From Spinacia oleracea (taxonomy: Eukaryota > Streptophyta > Magnoliopsida > Caryophyllales > Amaranthaceae), in contig NC_079487.1 in NCBI RefSeq assembly GCF_020520425.1, positions 131,028,385 through 131,092,384 of the forward strand: DNA of 64,000 nucleotides, written 5' to 3'. Position 1 is the first letter of the stretch; each line of letters starts with the position of its first letter. Below the pieces are notes generated by a model. The model did no database searches and was not told the DNA's origin. It was given only the letters and a program-made list of their open reading frames with translations. Made by a program: the position numbers and the translations under genes. Shown here one piece after another: positions 5,639-60,333 of this stretch.

Positions 5639-8074
5639 TAATCTAATATATATAAATAAAGGGGAGTTTTTTGGAGAGTATTTAGAGCGTCCACGTAGGA
5701 TTTTCATGTCATCACACACTAATATTTTAGGTTTATCAAAAAATAAAATTAAATAATATATTAGAGCCCTGCCATAATTAAATTTCGTTAGAATGTTAGG
5801 CACCAAATCCTACGTCTACCTTTTCGTATATTATGTTAGAGTCCTGGCACCAAACAAAATTGTTGGAATGTTAGCACCAATCCTACGGCCATATATATAT
5901 ATATATTATATTAACAAATATTTTAGCTTATGATAAAGATTAGATTCCAACAAAATTTATCCTATTTCTACCAGCTTTTTGTATATATATCCCTCTATTT
6001 CTTTAAATTACCCATGACTTCATTATGCCTTAACGAGTTTGTCCCAACATCTCTTCTTCTACCTCCTCCTCCTCCTTATCCTCTACCACCTCATGTTGTT
6101 GTCGTAGGAAGATGGTATTTTTATGGTACCAAAGCCATGATATAAGCGAACCCCGTGCGGTTGTGTCAGGATTTGTGTCTTTTACACGATGTGGGGTGTT
6201 ATGTTCTGGTTGAGAGCTTCTTGGTTAGGAGGATTCTGGTTAGGAGGATTGATGAGATTTTGATTAAGAAGTACAACTTGAAGCGTATGAATACGATTCA
6301 ATGTAAATGGGATTGATTTGTAATCTTCTGTAAAAATGTCCTAATTCACTAATTGTATTGTACGTAAAGCTTCATTAATTAATGGATACACACAAGAATG
6401 TACCGATGTACGCTTGATGTTTAAAACAATTACTCCATGCTATTATACTTCTCCCTCCGTTTCATAAAATTCATCACTTTTACATTATGCGCGCTCCTAA
6501 ATCGTGTATTAGTAAAATCTAGATTTTAGTCGTTTATTAAATTGTTCATTTAAAATAAAAATTTTATTACAATTGTTAAATTTTATATATTAGATTAGAT
6601 TAGTTTTTTATTTTGAATTGAATTGAATTGAATTTTAGATTTATTTTTAATTAGTATAGTGTTTAATTTTAAATGGAATTGTATATATAATTAATTAGTT
6701 CATTAAAAATATCTACGTGGCAAAACAATCCAATACGAAAAGTGAGTCAAATAATTAATAGGCTATACTCAGTCTTAAAGTTTTTTATTTTAAAAAGGAA
6801 AAATAATCAAGAAAAAAAGATAGAATAGTCAAATTAATAGTACGATTAATTTATATTTTGAGATAATTATCAAGCATGTAATAGAGTTTTATTTACATTA
6901 AACCTTTGATATTTGGATCAATATTTATATCATAATTTTGAGTTATGATAATTATTATCATCATCATAAATTGGAATGGATAGGTAGCATAGTTAATATA
7001 AATTATTATCTTTAAAGTTCAAAAAGAAAAAAAAAACAATCAACTAACTACTACGTCGAAAATGAAGCAACAAAAAGAGTATATACTTATACAAAATATA
7101 TGTAATGATTTTGTTGAGATCACATGAATAACGAGTCCTGTCGTATTTAGAAACTGATAATAAAGTTTTCGTTGGAGACAAATGAGCTTCAAACCCCTTA
7201 ATATGATAAGAGGCAGATTTCAACAAACCACTTAATATGATAACATGATAAGAGATAGATTTCAACATATAAATATATTTTATTATCTTATGAATGTGAT
7301 AAAAGATAAGAGATTACAACAAACATGTGAATACATTTTTTTGTTTTGCCTGAAAAGTGCAATGTTCAGTAGTTAATTTTTCCAATGCCATAGTAATTTT
7401 GGACCTTTTGGTGATGTCTTTTATTTATGGACATTATGGTTGTGTTGACTCGCCTAGGTCTCTTTAAGCAAGGAAAGAAATAGGTGTGAGCTTAAGTGGA
7501 CGCCTAATATAAAGAGGATTTCAATGACATCTCACTTCAGAAGTAACAAATAAATCAGAAGAATATCAGTAATTACTCTTATTACTCTTAACTACAAAGT
7601 ATTCCCTCCGTCTCTTTTTGTTTTTTTTACGTTTGCTATTTTTCACGCGTTTTAACGAATAATTAATTTGCATTAAAATTTCTCAACTTTTTTATTTAAA
7701 CGAGATAAATTACGTTTACTTATAATGTTTTCACTTTTATCAACATTTTGATATTGGGAAATGAGAAAAATTTAATGCCGCAATGGAAAAATGTGAGAAA
7801 TTAAATGACCCAATGAATTTGATTGGTTGAAATAATAATCTTACTAGAGTTGTCCCATGAACTAATCATTTTATAAGTTCATTTTTTCTATGAGTGTAAT
7901 ATTTTAAATCGATCTTAAGAAAATATTTATGCTCCAGTTTGAATAGGGACCTATTTTTAACTTTTCATTATAGGCATAATTTATAAAAAACACCTATGTA
8001 TAAATGACGACATGATAAGTCAAAGATGTACGAAAATTGACAAACCCGTGCATCGCACGGGCTTCAAAACTAGT
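5639..8074 (+). mobile_element. Candidate degenerate Helitron (5' end near 5639, 3' end at 8074)
   Basis: The left end reads TCTAATCTAATATATATAAA after an A, the same 5' terminus as other Helitron pieces here (12182 on plus, ~42068 on minus). The right end at 8045-8074 has a perfect hairpin, CCCGTGC-ATC-GCACGGG, followed by CTAGT then T, the standard Helitron 3' end. Whether both ends belong to one 2.4-kb element is uncertain. Stowaway-like half-ends at ~6453 and ~7604 (CTCCCTCCGT words without partners) suggest later insertions and loss. No Rep/helicase coding sequence is present, so it would be non-autonomous. Confidence 0.55.
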
Positions 8075-42677: not shown

Positions 42678-44636
42678 ATGGAGCAATTGGGTATTTTTAA
42701 TCCTAGGAGAAAACCCCAATTTCGTGGGATTTTCAATGGATTATGTGCAGTGATCCTATTTTTCTTTTTCTTCAATAGAGAAGATGTTCTCAGAAATCCT
42801 TTACTTAGGCAATCTTCTGTGACTGATAATCGGTGGCCTGTTCGTCTTAATTCCGGTGATGGGTCGGTCCAAGTGGAAATAATCCGGCGTAAGACAGCTG
42901 AAATTAGGGATAATTCAACAAATACTGGTAATGGGTCTATTTCAGATAATGCTTTAAGTGGAGAGAATGCTGTGTTTTGTGTTGGGTTAAGGGATCATGT
43001 AGGTTTTGATTCCCAGTGTGAGTATCTAAAGGCGCATTCAGAGTGTTCAACTAGCGGGTTCTTTGATTACTTACAGTTTTTTTACTGTGATTGCCGAAGA
43101 CTTGGGGTTTTAGGGTACGCAATTTTAGGGGTTTGGCTCGCGGCATTGTTTTACCTTCTAGGTAATACTGCGGCCGATTACTTCTGTTGTTCCCTGGAAA
43201 AGCTTTCGAGTATATTGAAACTGCCACCTACTGTGGCAGGGGTCACTCTCCTTCCCCTTGGGAATGGAGCTCCTGATGTATTTGCTAGCATTGCTGCTTT
43301 TGTAGGTACTGGTGCTGGTGAGGTTGGCTTGAACAGTGTGTTGGGAGGTGCAGTTTTTGTTACTTGTGTTGTTGTTGGTACTGTTTCTCTCTTGGTGGCT
43401 AATAAGCGGGTTCAGATTGATCGGAGATGTTTTATTAGGGATCTTAGCTTCTTTCTGGTGACCATCTTGTCACTCTTGTTGATTTTGTTTGTTGGAAGGA
43501 TAACTGTTGGGGCAGCCATTTGTTTTTTGATGATATATGTTCTCTATGCATTTGTTGTTGCTGCAAATGAGTTGTTGAGAAAGGAAGCACATAGACTTAA
43601 ATTTGATGCTGTAACTCCATTGCTTCCTGTGAATGGGAGTGCCTTCTCTCTAGGAGGTTCAGAGGATGATGCTATATACAGTCCCCTGCTTGACTTTGAG
43701 AGCGAGACTGATGCTCCCAATCTTCATCCTTCCTTGCCACAATGGATGTGGGCTTCAAATGTTGCGATCTACTCACATCAGTCTCTCAGATCAGATAATG
43801 AAAGGTCCCCTTGGGGATGGAACGACGAACGTGGTGGGGAATCTGAGAACTCTTCTTTTTCTTGCCCTAAATTTTTCTCTCTTTTGGAGCTTCCTTTGTC
43901 TCTTCCTAGACGATTAACGATTCCAATGGTGGAGGAGAAAAGTTGGTCAAAGCCATATGCTGTTGCCAGTGCCACATTGGCTCCTATTCTCATTTTGTTT
44001 TTATGGAGCTATGTTGATGTTCCTAGTTCTGTTGGCAAAGATCTTGCCTACGTTATTGGATTGGCAGCTAGTTGCATACTTGGAGTTCTCGCATACTATT
44101 ACACCACACCAGATCATCCACCACAGAGATTGTTATTACCGTGGGTTCTTGGAGGTTTCTTTATGAGTATTGTGTGGTTCTACATGATTGCAAGTGAACT
44201 CGTGGGTCTTTTGGTGGCACTAGGCATTATTTTGGGAATCAACCCGTCAATTCTTGGATTGACTGTTTTAGCATGGGGGAACTCTATGGGAGATCTGGTC
44301 TCAAATATTGCTTTGGCATTGAATGGTGGGGATGGTGTTCAGATTGCCTTGTCAGGGTGCTATGCTGGTCCCATGTTTAACACACTGATCGGGCTTGGGA
44401 TTTCATTGCTACTAGGCGCCTGGTCAGCTAGCCCTATATCATATATAGTTCCCAAAGACAGTAGCTTGTTCTACACAATTGGCTTTCTTTTAACCGGGCT
44501 TATCTGGGCTATTGTTATCTTACTCAAGAAAGACATGCGTCCTAGTAAAGTGTTGGGGATTGGTCTTATATCTTTGTACCTGATTTTCCTGTCTTTTAGG
44601 ATTGTCAGTGCGATGAGCGTGGGTGGTTTACAGTAA
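42678..44636 (+). CDS. CCX4: Cation/calcium exchanger, CCX type (652 aa)
   Basis: An intronless 652-aa membrane protein with about 12-13 hydrophobic helices split by a long hydrophilic loop (residues ~315-415). Both alpha repeats of the CaCA superfamily are present: [10 protein letters not shown] (residues ~195-204) in the first half and [10 protein letters not shown] (~534-543) in the second. These are the CCX forms of the ion-binding motifs, typical of the potassium-dependent-exchanger-like clade. The N-terminus ([20 protein letters not shown]) is a first helix or signal anchor, followed by a Cys-containing lumenal region ([18 protein letters not shown]). CCX proteins move Ca2+, Na+, K+ or other cations by exchange across endomembranes. 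CCX3/CCX4-like is my best subgroup guess; the exact ortholog is uncertain. Confidence 0.92.
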
Positions 44637-46136: not shown

Positions 46137-48465
46137 ATGGCGGAGCAGCCGATGCCAAAATCACCTCCCGGGTTGTTCGCCAAGCGCCGCCACCAGGCTA
46201 AACTTCAGGTTTTGGAGAGAGAAATTGGTTTTCTTGAGGTAATTTTATTCTCTCATTTTTTGTGTTTTTATTGAAACAAACGTTATTTCTCTCTTTTTAA
46301 GTATGTAACAGCTGAGGGAATATTCATTCATAGATTCAAATGTATGATTGTATGTTTGTAACATGCAAGTACTCCGTAGTATGCAACTGTGCAAGGAATT
46401 TCATTGCTTTATTTGGCTATGATTTGTGTACCCCAACTAGTTTCGTGGCCCCAAAGTCTTGGGGCCGCACCAAAGATCGAATCTTGTCTACATTCAATCA
46501 TGCCTGTGTAATTTGTTACACGTACTAAGCTTGATAAAAGTGTCCACCAAGGCTGCAGGGTAGCACTAGAACGAAGAAGAACTAGCTTGAGAAATATTTA
46601 AGGCTAAATTAATAGTAGAAGTTTTTCTGATGAACTAAGAATCAAGCAATCCTTTTCCCCCCATCTTACAAGACTTATCTTGATAAATATACCTGAATTG
46701 TCATTAAAGGTATTCCATTTCTTCATTCCTATGAACCTTTAAGCCTTAGTTCTTGTCTATATAGTTGAATCGTTCCTTCGAAAACTTATCCATCCATCAA
46801 AACCAAATTTCTTTCGGAATATATACAAGCCTTTTGCATATTTTGTTTCCCTTCACAATGCCAATGAAACCGACAACCACCATGTCTTCTGAGGCAATGC
46901 AGCCGAACCCACCATCTAACGAAGGGGAGAAGCACAAACAGTTAGACCACGAGATTAGAGAGATGGTCTCTTCTCTTACCTCCCGCCTCAATGATCTTCA
47001 TCAAAGCCATAAGCCGGGAGGGAGTGGGCCCCATATGGGGGACGAAGATGAAAACGGAGTTAGAATCATCACGATTGCTGGGACCAACACAGGGGCTACC
47101 ATGAAGCGTGAATTGTTGGATCATCACCATAAACATCACCACCACCACCACCACCACGAGGTATTCCCCGATGATGATCAGCCTGAAGGTTTGGACACCT
47201 ATGTGAACAGCAACTCCCAAGCCGTCAACAACTCGATCATGCTTGGTGCTAGCTACACCAGCAATGATCCAGGTGTCCACATGGACATTACAGATGTAGT
47301 GGACACCCATGGCCGGAAGGTCGAGAAGCACGGGAGAAGAGGAATAAGAAAGGGAAAGGAGCCTGCTCAAGCCAACTTACAGTCTGAGTTTTCTGAATGA
47401 TCATCTGAGTTCTGACAAGGAATCAAACATGACCAAATAATTGCATTTCTTGTAATATTCTAGCCTCCGACGTGTAAGAGAAAATTATGTGATTAAGTCA
47501 AATCGAAAACTTTACAAATAGAATGTGTGGATGTATGTGATAGGTTGAGCCGTTGAGTAGTTCTTGATTCTGTTGTGTGTACCTGTTTTTGGAGTTGTAC
47601 CTCTAAATTCACAATAATGGGAATATCTAGCTATCTTCAGTTTTAAAACTGTGTTATAATGACAGTAATGGAATCAGATTATTTCTCTACTCATGCATTT
47701 AACCTAGACACTGTTGATCTCATGAAAAACAGGAGGAGTTGAAGTCACTTGACAACATCCAGCCTACTTCTAGGTGTTGCAAAGAGTATGTATGGCTCGT
47801 TGACTGTCTGATTTAGCTAATTTTATAATCCTTCACAGATTTATCTTTTGTTCTTTTGTTTGTTTTCATCTATTGATCTCAGTGTCTTTTTCTTTGATGT
47901 AATGCTAATTAACAGGATCAATGACTTCGTCGTTACAAAACCAGATCCCTTGATAACTACGTATGATAATTCTACGCGTTATCTAAAATCTTGTGACTGT
48001 ATAGTACAGAGTATATTGATATGGAAATAAACTTTTTCCCCTGATGGTTATTTGCAGAAATCAGAAGTCTAGTCCGTCAGACTGTTCGTGTTCATGTAGG
48101 AGAATCAGGTACTTTTCTTTAAAAAAATCCCTTGGCTGTTCAAATCTCGGTCTGTTTACAGAATATATGCAAGATCGTACCATAGTATTAATAATATCTG
48201 AAACATGACCAGGGGGAAATCATGTTTTAAATCGTCGTGGACTTGCTGTTTCAGTGGATGCTGCCGATCAGATAAAGAGCATCGCCAGCAAGCACGAACA
48301 AATTGCTGTTGTTCGAGGGAGAGTTATTGTCCTAAATGTTGTGCCATAAAAGGCTGTTCATGTTACCCTCAGAATTGCTGCTTATTTAGGTTGTGCTCTA
48401 ATTGTTGCTGTAAGGTAAAGCTTTGCCCCAATTGTGTACCAAGTTGTTGTGGTTCTTGCTGCTAA
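46137..48465 (+). CDS. AGG3: Class C heterotrimeric G-protein gamma subunit (AGG3/GS3 type), 167 aa
   Basis: Five exons: 46137-46238, 47733-47785, 47916-47960, 48058-48108 and 48213-48465, all GT-AG and in phase, giving 167 residues. The N-terminal G-gamma-like coiled coil reads RRHQAKLQVLEREIGFLEEE, then LKSLDNIQPTSRCCKEINDF, followed by the DPL motif of gamma subunits (VVTKPDPLI). Exon 5 encodes a Cys-rich tail with 25 Cys in 83 residues, ending CCGSCC, the mark of class C gamma subunits; there is no CaaX box. AGG3 pairs with G-beta at the plasma membrane, and rice GS3/DEP1 relatives control seed and organ size. The tail is short compared with the longest class C members. Intron 1 (1.5 kb) holds a separate gene. 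Confidence 0.93.
46858..47400 (+). CDS. Intronless 180-aa plant protein nested in G-gamma intron 1
   Basis: An ATG at 46858 (MPMKPTTTMSSEAMQ) opens a 180-residue frame on the same strand as the host gene, wholly inside its first intron. A TATA-like TCTATATAG lies about 100 bp upstream, and no splice sites needed by the host are touched. Segments HEIREMVSSLTSRL, GVRIITIAGTNTGATMK, NNSIMLGASYTSNDPGVHMDI and a basic C-terminus (HGRRGIRKGKEP) look like a conserved angiosperm protein of unknown function that I recall only vaguely. Residues 89-100 are almost all His. The single exon could mean retroposition or simply an intron-poor family. No signal peptide or membrane helix. Function unknown. Confidence 0.75.
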   Translation: MPMKPTTTMSSEAMQPNPPSNEGEKHKQLDHEIREMVSSLTSRLNDLHQSHKPGGSGPHMGDEDENGVRIITIAGTNTGATMKRELLDHHHKHHHHHHHHEVFPDDDQPEGLDTYVNSNSQAVNNSIMLGASYTSNDPGVHMDITDVVDTHGRKVEKHGRRGIRKGKEPAQANLQSEFSE

Positions 48466-49351
48466 AGACAATGAATTTTTATATAATTTTCCTAAGTTAA
48501 TGTTTCTAGGGGTATTATTTCCATATATTCGCTCTCTTGATGGTTTCTTATTCCGCATAGAGAAGGAGTAATGCTTCGTTTTTTCTTTGGCATTTTTCGC
48601 ATGATAATTTTTTTAGAAGACTTTTTTGTTGAACGTGTTTGTTTTGATGCTACTTTTCTATTGAAAACATAACCATCCTTACTTATCCTTAATTTCATTT
48701 TTGCAAGACTAGCTCTCGGAGGTGTTATTGTAAAAGTATGTCAACTCTCAGTCTGGAAAAAAATGTATGAAATTGACTCGTTAAAAGTTTTGGTACCCTT
48801 GAATATATGTGCATTTAGTGCTTGAGTTGTTCCACACTGGAGAAAAAATAGTCACTTTATTGTATTAGAAAGTTTCTCTTCCCATTTTTAGTTTTAGATT
48901 AAACCTTAATTACTCTAGATTGTAAGTTACGGTACTGATCTAGACACGGTATGTTAAGTTTATTTTCAATCTTCAGTGACCATCATGCTTCTAGGTGTCT
49001 ACTGTAATAAAATCCGAGGTGTTTTTTATTGAGTGTACTCTAAGTTGTTGTCAATGATTGCAGTATGTTAATGAATATATTTTTCTGGCTGGATTTGGAT
49101 TTTAATCCGTCGTATAATATTCTAATCCAAGGAGGCAATACAGAGCATATCTGTTAGTCTGTTACCCAAATAATTTATCAAATCAAACCTACTCCTTTTG
49201 ATTTTATTATTTTTCAATACTCGTTTTGCATTCCATGAATTATGTATTATATTTCCTGCTTCAATATGTTTCATGCACATGACGCAGTCTGTATTCTTTC
49301 CCCTTTTAAAAGGGAGAAAAAACCAGAACCTACCAAAAATAGCAAACAAAA
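48466..49351. other. Intergenic DNA before the subtilase cluster
   Basis: 3' flank of the G-gamma gene and 5' flank of the first subtilase. No further gene supported. Confidence 0.5.
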
Positions 49352-52300
49352 ATGGCCAATTTCTTTCTCTTATTCGTCTTACTCCTCTCCCTCTTCCTAC
49401 CCTATACACTATCAAAATCCACCTACATCGTTCATGTGTCGAAATCCCACAAGCCCGCCACCTTCTCCTCCTCCTCCTCCAAAGACTGGTACACCTCTAT
49501 CCTCAACTCTCTCTCCTCCGCTACCACTACCACCACCCCTAGCCTATTATACTCTTACACTCTCTCCTCTACTGGCTTCGCGGCACACCTCTCCACGGTG
49601 GAAGCAGCGGAGCTTCACCGTCACCCTGCTGTCCTTACCATCATCCCGGACAAAGCACACCACATCCACACCACCCGTACCCCACACTTCTTGGGCCTCA
49701 AGGAAAGATCCGGCCTCTGGCCTAAATCTCAGTACGCTTCTGATGTCATCATTGGTGTACTTGATACTGGCATATGGCCTGAACTCCCTAGCTTCTCTGA
49801 TGAAGGGTATGATCAGGTGCCTGCCACCTGGAAAGGGTCTTGCGAGGTGGGCTCTGATTTTCCTGCTAGCTCCTGTAATCGGAAGATCATTGGCGCTCGT
49901 GCCTTCTACCAGGGGTAAGTTCTCCAGTTTTCTTATTTGGGTCAAAATCCTTCATTATTGTAATAATATGTTGACTTTTTATCCTAAATTCCAAAGGTGA
50001 AAGTATCATGACTTATGAATGAGTATGATCATCAAGCTTTTTTTTTCCATGTCATGTTAACAATGTTTAAATTGAGCTGTCAAATCACGTGTTTATGTCG
50101 AGTTATATTAGGTTGATGTCGTTTAACTGGTTTGTCATCTCATGGTAGTCAGTTTAGTATTGTGAGTTCTAGTTTTCAATAGATTAAAATGAAATATACT
50201 ACGTAGAATGTTATATATACGTATAAACTTTCTACAATAAGTTTTTGTTGTACTCTGAATATTTTCTTCTTCTTTTTAACCTAGTTTTTGTTGTACGAGA
50301 GTACTTGTACGGTATTTTAGTTATTAATTTATTATTGCAGCAGTGGTTTGACAGTTCTACTACTCATAGTATCTACTACTCCCTCCGTCCCGGAATACTC
50401 GACCCGGTTTGACCGGCACAGAGTTTAAGGGACTTGAATTGACTTATTTAATTTAATAGGTAGTAGTTGATAGTGGGGTATTATTTTAATGTAGTTAGTG
50501 GGAAATGTGTGAAGGGGTGGGGTTGGGAGAGAGTAGGGGTTGAATTTTTAATTATTTTTTGTATGGAGTAGGGGGTAGGTGGGTTAATAGGGGTGGAGTG
50601 AGAAATAATATAATATTGTTAGAATATTTCCATTTTTAGAAACATGTCAAGTATTAAGGGACGGCCCGATAAGGAAAACAGGTCAAATATTCCGGGACGG
50701 AGGGAGTAGTACGTTTAAATACTTCGTAATAAGTATAATCGTCTATCAAGTCAGAAAAGTAAAAGATTTAAAGATTGGAAATGAAAGTAAAGATTAGTTT
50801 TAAGATTGAGTGTTGATGGGAACTTTTGTGACCCTTGGGATAGGTACGAAGCAGCAAAAGGGCCAATGAACGAGACAAAAGACTCGAAATCACCTCGAGA
50901 TACCGAGGGGCATGGAACTCACACGGCCTCAACAGCAGCTGGATCAGTAGTTCCAAATGCGGGACTATTTGATTATGCTCGAGGAGAGGCCTGGGGGATG
51001 GCTATCAAGGCTCGCATTGCAGCCTACAAAATCTGCTGGAGTCTAGGATGCTTTGAATCCGATATACTGGCCGCCATAGACCAGGCCATTGCGGATGGAG
51101 TACACGTGATATCGCTCTCTGTCGGAGGTAAAAAGGTGGCTCCAAGTTATGACAAAGATAACATTGCTATTGGTGGCCTACATGCTGCACAGAGAGGTGT
51201 GTTGGTGTCTTGTTCAGCTGGAAACTCTGGGCCAAAGCCTTTTACTGCAGTGAATATTGCGCCGTGGATTTTGACCGTTGGAGCATCAACCATTGATAGA
51301 GAGTTCTCCGCAGTTGTGGAGTTGGGTGATGGGAGGAGTTTCAAGGGTGCGTCTTTGTATGCCGGAGAACCTTTAGATGACAGTGTTTATCTAAAGTTGG
51401 TTAATGGAGCAGATTGCGGCAGTAGATTTTGCATTGCAGGTTGGTTATCCGATCCTTTCTTTTCCTTTTTTTTTTTCCTCAATTGATTTGATCCTTAATT
51501 TGTCTAGATACTTGTAGCTTGTTTCATGATAAAATTGGGCCTCGGTTCAACTTTTTTCGAATTTCTTGACAAACCATCTGTTACTTGCAAGTTGCAAGGG
51601 TTGCAACATGCTGGTTACTTTCACAACAACTTATGACCTATGTTACTTGGACTCGGGTACTAGTGTCGGACACGGGTACATGTCCAGTGTCCGACTCAGC
51701 TAAATTGTGAAATTTATCCAGGATTTAAGTCGAAAATGAAGTGTCAGAGTGTGGAGGATCCAACACGGGTAATTGAGGTAAAATAAAGAGTCGGAGCAAC
51801 TTTCAAGGGTTATTAACTTGTTAGTTCAAAAAATAACTTGCAACAAATTAGTTTGGGACATTCTTACCCAAAACTTACTGCTAGAAATAAGATGTACCGG
51901 ATGTGTGCTACACCTCCTCACTTATTAATAGTAGAAGTATTACGAGTACAAATTATAAGCCAAGCCCATACAATGCAGTGTAATCTTTGGGATGTATAGT
52001 TTAAATGTATGCTGTTCTAGCTAGAATCTTGTTAATTTAGTTGTTGCTGCTGATACCTCGAGGTTGTCTATTGTCACAGGTGAACTGAATTCATCAAGAG
52101 CAGCAGGAAAAATGGTGATATGTGACCGAGGAGGAGCAAACAGCCGAGTTGCCAAGGATTATGCAGTTAAACAAGCTGGTGGTGTGGGAATGATTCTGAC
52201 TAACCTAGCAGAAAGTGGTGAAGAACTATTAGCCAATTCACATATTATCCCCGCCACTTTGGTGGGTCAAAGTGCCGGGGACCAAATCAAGGATTATGTT

Positions 52301-52864
52301 TCTTCAAACACTAATCCAACAGCTACAATCAAGTTCAAAGGAACCGTAATAAGTCCCTCGCCATCAGCCCCAAGGCTAGCAGCATTCTCTAGCAGAGGAC
52401 CCAACTCAGTCACACCCGAAATCCTAAAGCCTGATGACATTGATGCTAGTGACTATATTTCCTTTTTATGTTCCGTTGGGTATGACTCCAAAAAGATTGC
52501 CATTTTCCTCAAAGATCCTGCTACTATTGATTGTGGAGCAAAGAATTTGTCTATCCCTGGTAATCTGAATTACCCTTCGTTCTCAGTTGTGTTTGAATCT
52601 GGCAAAACTATAGTGAGATACACTAGGGTGGTGAAAAATGTCGGACTCTCAGCTAATGCAGTTTATACGGTTAATGTGAATGCACCAACAAACGTAAATG
52701 TCAGTGTTACTCCGAGAAAGCTCATTTTCAGTGGCAAGAAACGAACACTGTCGTATGAGATCGTGTTTACGAGCATAAGAAGTGATGAATCGGTCTTCGG
52801 AACATCAAGTTTTGGGTCAATAGAGTGGAGTGATGGAAGTCATCGCGTGAGGAGTCCTATTTAG
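49352..52864 (+). CDS. SBT1-type subtilase lacking the catalytic-serine segment (647 aa)
   Basis: Exons 49352-49914, 50844-51439 and 52080-52864 splice in frame and match the intact gene downstream. Present are the signal peptide (FFLLFVLLLSLFLPY), the I9 propeptide, catalytic Asp (VLDTGIWP) and His (GHGTHTAS), the oxyanion Asn (SAGNSGP), the PA domain and most of the Fn3-like C-terminus. Missing in frame are about 111 residues between PEILKPD and IDASDY (junction near 52435). The loss includes the [11 protein letters not shown] serine motif, so the product cannot be an active serine protease. It also stops at RSPI, ~16 residues before the family end. It is either a pseudogene or a pseudoprotease. 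Intron 1 carries a Stowaway MITE. Confidence 0.85.
50379..50706. mobile_element. Stowaway-type MITE, family A copy 2, in a subtilase intron
   Basis: A 328-bp element with TIR CTCCCTCCGTCCCGGAATAC at both ends, flanked by TA. It is the inverse of the 9167-9493 copy, with only scattered differences by eye, so both are fairly young. Confidence 0.92.
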
Positions 52865-54424
52865 GAATATGGCCCAAAAAAACCACCTTCATCGTCCACA
52901 TGTCACATTCCCAGAAACCGGGCACCTTCGGGTCCTCCCATGGCTGGTACACATCCATCCTCAACTCTCTTTCTTCAAACTCCACTGAAGAAACGCCAAA
53001 CCTCCTTTACACATATTCTCACGCTGCTACTGGTTTCGCAGCTCATATTTCGACAGCTCAGGCAACAGAGCTCCGAACTCATCCATCCGTGTTATCTGTC
53101 ATCCCTGACCAAATTGTGGACGCCCAAACAACCCATTCTCCCAGTTTCTTGGGCCTTTCGGACTCTTCAGGAATATGGCCCAATTCGCATTGGGGATCTA
53201 ATGTCATTATTGGCGTTATAGACTCTGGGATATGGCCTGAAAGCCTCAGCTTTCACGATATGGGCCTTGGTCATGTGCCCGCCCGTTGGAGGGGTTTTTG
53301 CGAGGTTTCCCCTGACTTTCCGGCTACTTCTTGTAATAACAAAATCATTGGTGCACGTACATTCTATCGCGGGTAATCGTAATTTACACTTTTCTTAAAT
53401 ATTCACGTAACTACTTTCTCTGTTTTTTCTTTATCATTCCCGAGCAACAGTTAGTTATACAAGTGGAATACGTATCAAAAAATACATGTCTTCAACTGGT
53501 AAACCAACAGCCAGAATCAAGTTCCGAGGGACTATAACAAGCCACTCCCCATCAGCACCAAGGGTAGCTGCGTTTTCTTCCCGCGGCCCCAACAATATCA
53601 CACCTGAAATACTAAAGCCTGATATTATTGCCCCTGGTGTTAACATCCTTGCCGCTTGGACAGGTGCTGACACAAGAAAGGTGCGATACAACATTATATC
53701 TGGTACTTCTATGGCTTGTCCACATGTAAGTGGCTTAGCTGCTTTGCTAAAACAAACTTACCCTACTTGGACCCCTGCTGCTATCAAATCTGCAATCATG
53801 ACTACGGCTTATAACCTCGACAATTCTGGTAATAACATCACTGATCTCTCAGCACCTTTGAACAAATCCTCCTTGTTTGTTACAGGATCCGGCCATATTC
53901 ACCCTAACAAGGCTCTCCATCCTGGTCTAGTCTATGATCTAGATACTAGTGACTATGTGGCATTTCTATGTTCCATTGGGTACGACTCCAGAAAGACTTC
54001 TCAATTCGTCCAACACCCAACAACCATTGATTGCCGCACTTATTATAAGAGGTTCTCAACTCCTGGTCACTTGAATTATCCATCCTTGCCTGTTGTGTTT
54101 AAATCTGTTAACGACGTTGTAAGATACACAAGGGTTGTCAAAAACGTTGAGAGATCAAAGAATGCAGTATATCGAGTTAGTGTGAGTGCACCAAGATATG
54201 TCAAAGTTAAAGTTTTTCCTAGAAAACTCGTCTTCAACGCCAATAAACCAACATTGTCCTATACCATAACTTTCACTAGCATCGATGGAATTGTTATTCC
54301 GACCAATGGATTAGCGACTTTCGGGTCAATTGAATGGACTGATACAAGTCATCGTGTAAGGAGCCCTATTGCAGCTTATTGGCCTTATAGAACCGCCCAA
54401 GAAAACTTCGTAGCTTCAATATAA
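52865..54424 (+). pseudogene. Subtilase gene fragment lacking signal peptide and His/Asn segment
   Basis: It follows the preceding gene with no spacer. 52876-53372 encodes an SBT1 propeptide start (TTFIVHMSHSQKP) and the Asp motif (VIDSGIWP), ending at ARTFYRG with a donor-like GTAATC. 53451-54424 resumes inside the PA domain (YMSSTGKPTARI) and continues with the serine motif GTSMACPHVSG and a full C-terminus ending FVASI. The signal peptide and the exon with catalytic His and oxyanion Asn are absent. Simple splicing of the two parts across the CAG at 53448-53450 does not keep frame. It is best read as a deletion remnant of a third cluster gene, diverged from its neighbours. Confidence 0.8.
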
Positions 54425-55978: not shown

Positions 55979-58900
55979 ATGGCAGCAACTTTCTCTCTCC
56001 TCTTTTTTCTCTCCCTCTCTCTCTTCATATCTCTTAGCCAATCAAAATCCACCTACATAGTCCACGTGTCAAAATCCCATTCGCCCACCACCTTCTCCTC
56101 CCCAAAAGACTGGTACTCCTCCATCCTCCACTCTCTCTCCTCCTCCGCCACCACCACAACCACCCCTCCCCACCTCCTCTACTCCTACACTCACTCCTCA
56201 ACAGGCTTTGCGGCCCATCTCTCTGAGGCCCAAGCAGCCCACCTCCGCCGCCATCCTGCCGTCCTATCTATCCACCCTGATCGGGCCCATCAGATTCACA
56301 CCACCCGTACTCCTCACTTTTTGGGTCTTCAAGAAGGGTCTGGTCTCTGGCCCAACTCCCATTACGCCTCTGACGTTATCATTGGTGTTCTTGATACCGG
56401 TATCTGGCCCGAGCTACCTAGCTTCTCCGATGATGGGTATGATCACGTGCCTTCCACGTGGAAAGGCTCCTGCGAGGTGGGCCCCGAATTTCCCGCCGAT
56501 TCTTGTAATCGGAAAATCATCGGCGCTCGTGCTTTCTTCAAAGGGTATGTTTTTACTTTATATTCTGTCGAAAATTTGATCCGAACAAAGCATTGACTTT
56601 TTTTAATATTTCTTTTCTGGGTTTGATTGTGCTTGACTACAATTTTAAAATTAAAGTTTGATTATCAGAAGATTAACATCTTTAATCGTAGCTATACTGT
56701 TTTTAAAACACATTCTGCTATGTAATCTTGTACTGTTTGCTCTTAATCACGCTGTTATTGGTGTAATTAATGTTTAATTAGTTCTTAGGATTGGCTTGAA
56801 AATTGTTATCATTTCCGTAATCATATTGGGATTGATTTGAAAATTGATACTCTTTCTTGCTCGTTGAAGTTCTACCTACTTTCCGTTTATATCCGTTCCA
56901 TATCGCGTTATACAATGCTTTCGATTTTCTGTACAGGAACTATGTTGTAAGTTGTTACATAGGGGACAATGTGATTTGTGATATAAGGTGTTTGTTGCAG
57001 TTCATATTGGTTGATTTTTAAAAAAAATGGACTACTGAGTACTGACCCAGAAAGGGCTGTGCTGCAATCTTAATTCAGGAATCAATTACCCTCAGTTTTT
57101 CAAGTGATTAGTTCAATTTTTTAGTATAAATTCGAACATTGATGAGGATATTTATCACCACTGTGTAGGTATGAGGCATCCAAAGGGCCGATGAACGTAA
57201 CTAAAGAGTCAAAATCACCACGAGACACCGAGGGGCATGGGACTCATACAGCCTCAACCGCAGCTGGGTCAGTGGTTCCCAATGCTGGATTTTTCGAGTA
57301 TGCTCGTGGGGAGGCTCGGGGGATGGCAACAAAGGCTCGCATTGCAGCTTACAAGATCTGCTGGAAAACTGGTTGCTATGATTCTGATATTTTGGCTGCC
57401 ATGGACCAGGCTATTGAGGATGGAGTCCACGTGATCTCGCTCTCTGTTGGATCTTCAGGATTGGCACCGAACTTTGATGATGATAGCATTGCTATTGGTG
57501 CACTACATGCTGCCCAAAGTGGGGTTTTGGTGTCTTGTTCAGCTGGGAATTCTGGGCCTGATGCTTTTACTGCAACGAATATTGCACCTTGGATTTTGAC
57601 TGTGGGAGCATCCACCATTGATAGGGATTTCCCAGCGGATGTAGTGTTGGGAGATGGGAGGAGTTTTAAGGGGGTGTCTTTGTATTATGGGGATGGTTTG
57701 AATGACAGTGTTTATTTGGAGTTGGTTAGAGGTGCTGATTGTGGCAGTAGACTTTGCAAAGCAGGTACTCATTAACCCTTTTTTTTCCAATTTAGCTCTG
57801 GCTGTTTTTCGATTATGTTTTTTAAATGTTAGGTCCTGATTTTAGGAAGGTATCCCTTATTTGAAAGCAACTTGCTAGACTATCTTAATGTAACTACTCA
57901 AATTAGACTTATTGATTGCAAATCTTTGCTTTGTTTCAGTCCTTCCAACTATGTTTAATCATACTTCTGTGTGTCTGCACACCAATAAATGTTCATAGGT
58001 GAAGCAATATCCTTCAAATTATGTCGATGAACCTTGTGTTACTTCAACTTCTTGATGTGATCTTGTCTGAAATTTTCTGGAAAGAGTGAAAATAGGGTGA
58101 ATTAATTGTCTTTTAGTGTTAGAGTTCATATGGATGTCAGTATAGTGGTCTAAATCATGCCAAGTCCATAAGTATACGAAGTACCAAGTACAATGTATCG
58201 AGATTATTAGGAATATATTATGTTTACAACTCCAGTTTCCTGTTTGGATGTTCAGGCCTTAAGGTTAGTCTATTGAATTGTCGCAGGTGAACTTAATTCA
58301 TCACAAACAGCAGGGAAGATGGTGATATGTGACAGAGGAGATACTGCTCGAGTGGCCAAGGGTGATGCAGTCAAACAAGCTGGAGGTGCAGGAATGATTC
58401 TGGCTAACACAGCTGAAAGTGGTGAAGAACTGATAGCTGATTCACATTTAATCCCTGCAACTATGGTAGGTCAAACTGCCGCGGACCAAATCAGAGACTA
58501 TGTTTCATCGGCCCCTAACCCAACAGCCACAATCAAGTTCAAAGGAACTGTGATCGGCCCCTCACCATCAGCCCCGAGAGTAGCAGCCTTCTCTAGCCGA
58601 GGGCCCAGCCATCTAACACCCGAAATCCTCAAACCTGACGTCATAGCTCCTGGGGTTAACATCTTAGCTGGTTGGACAGGGTCTTCTGCACCTACAGACC
58701 TGGAGATTGACCCAAGGAGGGTTAAGTTCAATATCATATCAGGAACTTCAATGTCCTGTCCACATGTTAGTGGGTTAGCTGCTTTGCTTCGAAATGCTTA
58801 CCCCAATTGGAGTCCTGCAGCTGTAAAGTCTGCCCTTATGACCACAGCTTACAACCTTGACAACTCCGGTAAGAATTTTACAGATCTTGCCACAGGAAAG

Positions 58901-59464
58901 CAATCCTCACCGTTTGTTCATGGATCAGGTCATGTTGACCCTAACAGGGCTCTCAACCCTGGTCTAGTCTATGACATTGACACTAGTGACTACATCGCCT
59001 TTTTATGTTCCATTGGGTATGATTCAAAGAAGATTGCCATATTTCTCAAAGAGTCTGCAACTGTTGATTGTGGTGCAAAGAATTTGTCTACACCCGGAAA
59101 CCTAAACTACCCTTCGTTCTCAGTCGTGTTTGAATCTGGGAAGAATGTGGTGAAATATACTAGGGTGGTGAAAAATGTTGGAAGCTCAGCTGATGCAGTT
59201 TATCAAGTTAGTGTGAAATCACCACTGAATGTAGATGTCAGTGTTTCTCCAAGTAAGCTTGAGTTCAGTGCTGAGAAACAAACACTATCTTATGAGATAG
59301 TTTTTACAAGCAATAGTGGAACTTATCTAACTGGTAAAAAACCAATACTGGGAACGTCGAGTTTTGGGTCGATTGAATGGAGTGATGGAAGTCATCGTGT
59401 AAGGAGTCCTATTGCAGTGAGATGGATTGAGGGTACTCAACAACATTTCGTAGCTTCGATTTGA
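55979..59464 (+). CDS. SBT1.4: Subtilisin-like protease, SBT1.4 type (779 aa)
   Basis: Three exons: 55979-56544, 57169-57764 and 58287-59464, in phase, total 779 residues, normal for plant subtilases. Order: signal peptide (residues 1-22), I9 propeptide (~25-105), catalytic Asp139 (VLDTGIWP), His212 (GHGTHTAST), oxyanion Asn316 (SAGNSGP), PA domain (~385-480), catalytic Ser542 ([11 protein letters not shown]), Fn3-like C-terminal domain ending FVASI. The sequence resembles Arabidopsis SBT1.4 from memory ([35 protein letters not shown]). It would be secreted to the apoplast and self-process; SBT1.4 is linked to senescence and reproductive branching. It is the only intact member of this three-gene cluster. 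Confidence 0.95.
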
Positions 59465-59994
59465 GTTCGACTTTGTAACAAAGATGTTAATGGTGAAAAC
59501 TGCAGAGTATCTTATGTTCAGATTTCGGGTCATGATTATATTGAGCCTGCACCCTTCTCCATTTCTGAATTGTTGTATTGTAAACATTCTTTTTCCACTG
59601 TATATTTCCTGTTACATATCTGATGCATGAGTTTACTTCCTTTTTTATCTGTGATAAATTGATAATACAGAACTTATTAAGTTTAGGTTCTGCACTTTGA
59701 TTTTTCAGTCACTGTGAAGTAAATTTGTAGATTTACCGAGCAATAAATCTTGATGAAATACAAGAGACAGTAGCAAATCTAGCAGTTTCATTACCAAAAT
59801 AATAATTGCAATAAATCTTGATGAACTACAGGAGACAGTAGCAAATCTAGCTATTTCATTACACGAAGCCCTAAACAAAAATAAAAAATAAAATTGTGCA
59901 TGCTGCAAGAACATATGAGTGCGAATCCCTATTTCATCACCCTAAACCACTAAAGTAAGGAGCATTCTATGATCTTTGCATTCATTAAATACTA
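59465..59994. repeat. 3' flank of SBT1.4 with a short direct repeat
   Basis: About 300 bp of likely 3' untranslated and flanking DNA, then two tandem copies (~59740-59794 and ~59809-59863) of a unit containing GCAATAAATCTTGATGAA and AGACAGTAGCAAATCTAGC. Confidence 0.7.
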
Positions 59995-60331
59995 TTCCCT
60001 CCGTTCCTGAATAAGTGTCACTTTTCCTTTTTTGATTTTCCTTATAATTATCACTTTTCTATTTTTGAACATATACTTTTCCCACTTTTCACACTATTTC
60101 ATATATTTTTTCCATTTTCCCTTAAATCATGATTACTTTTACTTACACATTTTTCCACTTTCAATCCCCATATCCAATTTTATTTGTAATTTATTAATAA
60201 ATACGAGTAATTATCTAATTTTTCCTTTCCCAAATCAAAAACATTCCCAATCTTACATCTTACACACTTCACAATTTTATTAAGCTCCTTGCCGTTCCCA
60301 ATAAGTGACACTTATTTAGGAACGAAGGGAG
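59995..60331. mobile_element. Stowaway-type MITE, family C
   Basis: A 337-bp element with TIR TCCCTCCGTTCCTGAATAAG at left and the inverse TTATTTAGGAACGAAGGGA at right, flanked by TA. Confidence 0.85.
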
Positions 60332-60333
60332 TA

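Follow-up and report, generated by a model that had tools for sequence, protein, structure and literature searches.

Probable loss of function in two tandem subtilase copies beside an intact gene in spinach

Tandemly duplicated plant subtilases are known in tomato (PMC6043521) and grape (PMC4378017), where, in the sections of these papers available to us, the clusters encode proteins with signal peptide, prodomain, catalytic and PA domains. Here we analyse a 64,000-nucleotide stretch of Spinacia oleracea (assembly GCF_020520425.1, contig NC_079487.1, positions 131,028,385 to 131,092,384 of the forward strand; hereafter the window), in which two damaged subtilase genes, gene 1 and gene 2, lie beside an intact one. 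The locus is in all likelihood a tandem array of three plant subtilase genes of the secreted type, of which local deletions have disabled two and left one intact. Its domain organisation is like that of the tomato and grape clusters, from which it differs in having two of its three copies disabled by deletion; neither of those papers uses 'pseudogene' or 'truncated' in its main text.

What a disabled copy might still do can be gauged from two further systems. In the phytaspase paper (PMC11203471, sections available to us), Ser-dead plant subtilase precursors are stated not to have their prodomain cleaved, not to be transported to the apoplast and to be kept in the cell. Arabidopsis SBT5.2(b), according to the part of PMC5074803 available to us, is an intracellular subtilase isoform whose role is independent of protease activity, a precedent for a non-proteolytic function that shares with gene 2 the absence of a signal peptide; however, it arises as a splice isoform whose catalytic triad is complete, whereas gene 2 is without His and Asn and gene 1 is without Ser but keeps its leader. 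The open-access literature yielded nothing on this locus among the share of spinach subtilase genome titles covered, and none that joined spinach subtilisin-like protease, pseudogene and tandem duplication; nor, going by title, a Ser-less plant subtilase in the part covered of the work on pseudogene or catalytically inactive subtilases. A single search of one open-access library yielded no plant subtilase pseudoprotease, its matches concerning malaria parasites as judged by title or start of abstract, which is no proof of absence.

The three copies lie in direct orientation, and the matching pieces reported are ~60–89% identical as DNA. Their parts and the mapped junctions (D1, D2) are as follows.

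49352..49914, + strand: gene 1 exon 1, with leader, I9 prodomain and catalytic Asp (open frame, GT donor; PF05922, PF00082)
50844..51439, + strand: gene 1 exon 2, with catalytic His, oxyanion Asn and start of the PA domain (open frame; Pfam)
52080..52864, + strand: gene 1 exon 3 remnant, with the remaining PA, part of S8 and fn3, without 111 amino acids (aa) including Ser and without the last 16 aa
52430..52442, + strand: junction D1, 333 bp lost in frame from gene 1 exon 3 (gene 1 against the left and right flanks in the intact gene)
52863..52877, + strand: junction D2, 15-nt filler between the gene 1 3' end and gene 2 exon 1, identical to 53169-53183
52876..53374, + strand: gene 2 exon 1 remnant, with I9 prodomain and Asp motif, without signal peptide
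53375..53435, + strand: gene 2 intron 1 remnant running into junction D3 (end approximate, breakpoint by eye)
53436..54424, + strand: gene 2 exon 3 remnant, with GTSMACPHVSG, fn3 and native stop (start approximate)
55979..59464, + strand: intact neighbour, 779 aa in three exons (55979-56544, 57169-57764, 58287-59464)

The original prediction had called the neighbour an intact SBT1.4, and its 779-aa three-exon frame bears out that it is intact; the SBT1.4-like label itself, carried over from that prediction, is putative. A C6 paralogue of 770 aa served as a second intact reference.

Gene 1 (49352-52864) has an open spliced frame of 647 codons followed by TAG, with GT..AG introns. As foreseen, it keeps the start codon, a hydrophobic leader, Asp (DTG), His (GHGTH) and the oxyanion Asn (SAGNSGP), all identified by eye, and its frame is otherwise open. 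The predicted in-frame loss of ~111 residues proved to be exactly 111 aa, the same against the intact neighbour and against the intact C6 paralogue, and includes the Ser motif; the C-terminal 16 aa, whose absence had gone unnoticed, are also gone. Pfam recovered I9, PA and fn3, and S8 only in part (profile positions 2-206 of 288). An active plant subtilase (S8A) carries Asp, His, Asn and Ser in one open frame, and gene 1 has no Ser.

Gene 2 shows complementary losses: its start codon and signal peptide are gone, as are most of intron 1, exon 2 and with it His and Asn, intron 2 and the first part of exon 3. Alignment and Pfam (I9, partial S8 and fn3 on its fragments) agree with the earlier description of a copy devoid of signal peptide, His and Asn that still holds the Asp motif and the serine segment; the four catalytic residues in one frame are thus lacking here too. 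A dispersed copy of its 3' part, 90% identical, lies at G000:C4:20520491-20521341 (L051, about 6492-7342); this C4 fragment is 5'-truncated and frameshifted and carries some gene 2-like 3' flank.

The breakpoints of these losses lie within about 1 kb of one another and each joins non-homologous positions. At D1, the left (CCTGACG) and right (TATGACATTG) flanks of the intact gene overlap by 1-3 nt within CCTGATGACATTG of gene 1, so that the microhomology expected near 52435 is present but weak, at 1-3 nt (52434-52436). At D2, CCTATT of gene 1 is followed by T, the 15-nt filler and then gene 2 exon 1, and the TAG stop of gene 1 (52862-52864) sits at this fusion. The 15-mer occurs at exactly two places in the window, both strands checked; its other copy lies 306 bp further on, within gene 2 exon 1. 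At D3, placed by eye, intron 1 of gene 2 is joined to exon 3, everything from the missing part of intron 1 through exon 2 and intron 2 into exon 3 having been lost. The original prediction offered unequal exchange in a tandem array as one source of the pair, and the direct orientation of the copies would suit it; yet unequal crossing-over would join homologous positions, and none of the three junctions does, one of them carrying a filler that matches nearby sequence. We therefore rejected it, and give it a practically negligible probability. Because D1–D3 join non-homologous positions, end joining or template switching would, on the sequence, be the likelier explanation of the breakpoints. Templated-insertion end joining has been described in plants (PMC10923293, PMC6071589, PMC5217109, in the parts available to us) and, as at D2, its deletion junctions carry short fillers that match sequence close by; D2 differs in being an old junction without its parental sequence, for which we infer the repair pathway. 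It is possible that a single event lies behind all three deletions. The other half of the original suggestion, that the pair is debris of a tandem array, is the part of the earlier interpretation with the best support.

Misassembly can occur in tandem arrays of similar genes such as this one, and an assembly error or collapse of a locus that truly holds one or two complete genes had also been raised. In searches of the whole assembly (894,210,420 bases, 242 contigs; best candidates scored, so that counts are lower bounds), the Ser segment gave at least 57 matches among 62 candidates scored, all on C1-C6 (the window itself being on C1), with identities among the matches listed of 100% for the intact neighbour, 78% for the C6 paralogue, 73% for gene 2, 69% for the C4 fragment and weaker values for others; one row was the remnant of gene 1 itself. 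No separate gene-1-like Ser segment was found among the 57 matches listed, making a collapse unlikely. Nor did the DNA-search matches listed contain a second copy of the junction region; they comprised the locus itself, once, together with six further pieces of 64-81% identity. The matching pieces are, moreover, too dissimilar (~60–89%, above) to favour collapse, and the D2 filler resembles biological repair rather than assembly error. The Monoe-Viroflay assembly of about 894.3 Mb and six chromosomes, presumably that analysed here, was built from 118x PacBio continuous long reads (CLR) of ~20 kb sheared libraries from a homozygous inbred line (PMC8668906, sections available to us), which also argues against an artefact. 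We consider this explanation highly improbable.

Whether the two copies are still under constraint was addressed with omega, the ratio of nonsynonymous (N) to synonymous (S) rates, estimated in a five-sequence codon model with our own script. For gene 2, changes over the 243 codons shared with the C4 fragment were polarised by the other copies, giving 8 N and 3 S on the gene 2 side, 16 N and 4 S on the C4 fragment side and 5 N and 5 S unresolved. The gene 2 tip, about 0.02 per site (0.062 per codon), was too short for a stable omega when taken alone (2.7 at length 0.022; 20 in a two-class fit), and so the two tips were pooled; their omega of 0.91 did not differ from 1 (twice the log-likelihood difference, 2dlnL, 0.07) and did differ from the rest (2dlnL 16.8). 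Gene 2 has evolved neutrally since its split from the C4 fragment. The branch before that split is long and has an omega of 0.23, and the lineage was therefore functional earlier. With loss of essential coding sequence, an intron remnant kept and neutral evolution, gene 2 has the marks of an unprocessed pseudogene.

Gene 1 groups with the C6 paralogue (favoured by 5.6 to 6.6 log units in four-sequence likelihoods), and over its whole branch has an omega of 0.17, with omega = 1 rejected (2dlnL 44.8) and the profile crossing 3.84 at 0.10-0.12 and at 0.25-0.30. This fits a protease that worked until recently and is no proof that the broken product is kept. When the last fraction f of the branch was set neutral and the omega before the loss left free, a neutral last 5-10% fitted; f = 0.1 requires a pre-loss omega of 0.085, and f = 0.2 costs less than 3.84 but requires the lower bound (0.007). 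With a shared omega, f = 0.05 costs a 2dlnL of 2.6. With 0.03 neutral substitutions per site, a frame of 647 codons would escape any stop with a probability of 0.13, and with 0.05 of 0.035 (indels not counted). Set against the gene 2 tip of about 0.02 per site, these chances would allow the deaths of the two genes to coincide roughly, or gene 1 to be under constraint even now.

Several observations weigh against the two copies having simply been disabled recently. Gene 1 runs through its 647 codons without stop or frameshift, and its whole-gene omega, 0.17 where the rest have 0.26, gives no sign of relaxation. Making the last 10% of the branch neutral under a shared omega costs a 2dlnL of 5.5, and any neutral phase must therefore be short. 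Among columns invariant in the family, gene 1 departs from the shared residue at 2 of 142, the intact C6 paralogue at more (5/145) and the intact gene at none (0/140); at columns of 85% conservation the deviations are 3/199, 12/205 and 2/200, respectively. Neither class of columns gave a sign of conserved-site decay in gene 1, in an alignment of eight paralogue rows, two of them (L010, L044) the same gene, from which six of the 12 loci tried had been dropped for having no frame above 480 aa on the one strand read. Omega on the gene 1 branch is also split, at 0.09 in exons 1-2 and 0.41 in exon 3 (2dlnL 11.5). A prodomain-free Ser mutant was secreted once the prodomain was supplied in trans (PMC11203471, sections available to us), although gene 1 has its prodomain attached and does not reproduce that situation.

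The split raises the prospect that gene 1 yields a retained non-catalytic product, with selection still acting on its prodomain and Asp/His/Asn half; it might, for instance, inhibit paralogues in trans through the prodomain or help them to fold. Its open frame and canonical splice sites would allow this, and parsimony N:S counts follow the same division (21:52 in exons 1-2 against 27:24 in exon 3; Fisher p 0.009; 10/2000 permutations); the omega of the intact gene (2dlnL 1.8) and of the C6 paralogue (1.2) is not split in this way. However, the split was chosen post hoc, and circular shifts reach the same unevenness in 13% of cases; omega in exon 3 does not significantly exceed that of the other branches (0.38 against 0.28, 2dlnL 0.7), either as a whole or in the stretch preceding the deletion (0.32, 2dlnL 0.1) or that following it (0.49, 2dlnL 1.3). 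Exon 3 also has the shorter fitted branch, at 0.45 per codon against 0.99, and gene conversion may therefore contribute. The unusual constraint falls instead on exon 2, which is catalytic and not prodomain and has the lowest omega on the branch (0.065 against 0.28 for other branches, 2dlnL 8.5), as in an ordinary protease; so low a value over His and Asn is more readily expected of a protease with a long working life than of a prodomain inhibitor. The omega of gene 1 is, besides, a branch average that cannot be dated to after the deletion. The expressed, secreted pseudoprotease proposed from the open frame likewise finds no support, since catalytically dead plant subtilase precursors, being unprocessed zymogens, are not secreted (PMC11203471, sections available to us) and a low omega equally fits a recently working protease. 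A retained product thus seems improbable.

Splicing might otherwise rejoin the two halves, gene 1 exons 1-2 (donor after 51439) being connected to an acceptor at 53450 to give a 710-aa chimera with part of the PA domain absent. Such a product would be in phase and open to the native stop of gene 2, and would include Asp, His, Asn and Ser; since the native 3' end of gene 1 is gone, its transcript would presumably run into gene 2. Yet about one acceptor in three is in frame by chance, and that at 53450 is average, tied with several at rank 11 among 58 [CT]AG sites on a crude pyrimidine score. The Ser half contributed by gene 2 is neutral, and the chimera therefore shows no sign of selection; we hold it to be very unlikely. 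Taken as a pair of alternatives, that the locus is one transcription unit spliced into a chimeric subtilase with reduced PA, or that the N-terminal half of gene 1 is selected as a non-catalytic in-trans regulator of the intact neighbour, is improbable.

Two recently disabled tandem copies, and not a new kind of secreted decoy enzyme, are very probably what the locus holds. Gene 1 would have lost its Ser segment in frame, together with its C-terminal tail, and gene 2 its promoter side, signal peptide and His/Asn exon, through local deletions putatively sealed by end joining or template switching, the losses in both genes falling perhaps within one repair event. Gene 1 probably was a working protease through most of its history and lost function recently; its zymogen, if translated, would have an uncleavable prodomain and probably be retained and degraded in the cell.

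Elsewhere in the window and assembly, a miniature inverted-repeat transposable element (MITE)-like element lies in gene 1 intron 1.

50374..50711, no strand assigned: MITE-like element with 37-nt terminal inverted repeats, 89% complementary

This element is presumably MITE/Stowaway-like. A second MITE-like element (59993-60333, 31-nt terminal inverted repeats) lies beside the intact gene, with a 55-nt direct repeat at 59740 and 59808 near it. At 47700-48470 there are exon fragments with EELKSLDNIQPTSRCCKE..., TKPDPLIT and a very Cys-rich tail, presumably akin to a class C plant G-protein gamma subunit; Pfam assigned no family to the single 23-aa piece scanned. An intronless 652-aa frame matching the sodium/calcium exchanger family (PF01699) occupies 42678-44636, and a further tandem subtilase cluster at G000:C2:102492092-102507682 comprises three or more long frames together with a partial copy.

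The locus is real, well explained and ordinary. Were gene 1 nonetheless retained, it would be a plant subtilase pseudoprotease. If ordinary, it offers a clean case of tandem-gene death through end-joining deletions with filler; it also cautions that an open frame within such an array may be annotated as a protease although it lacks the catalytic Ser.

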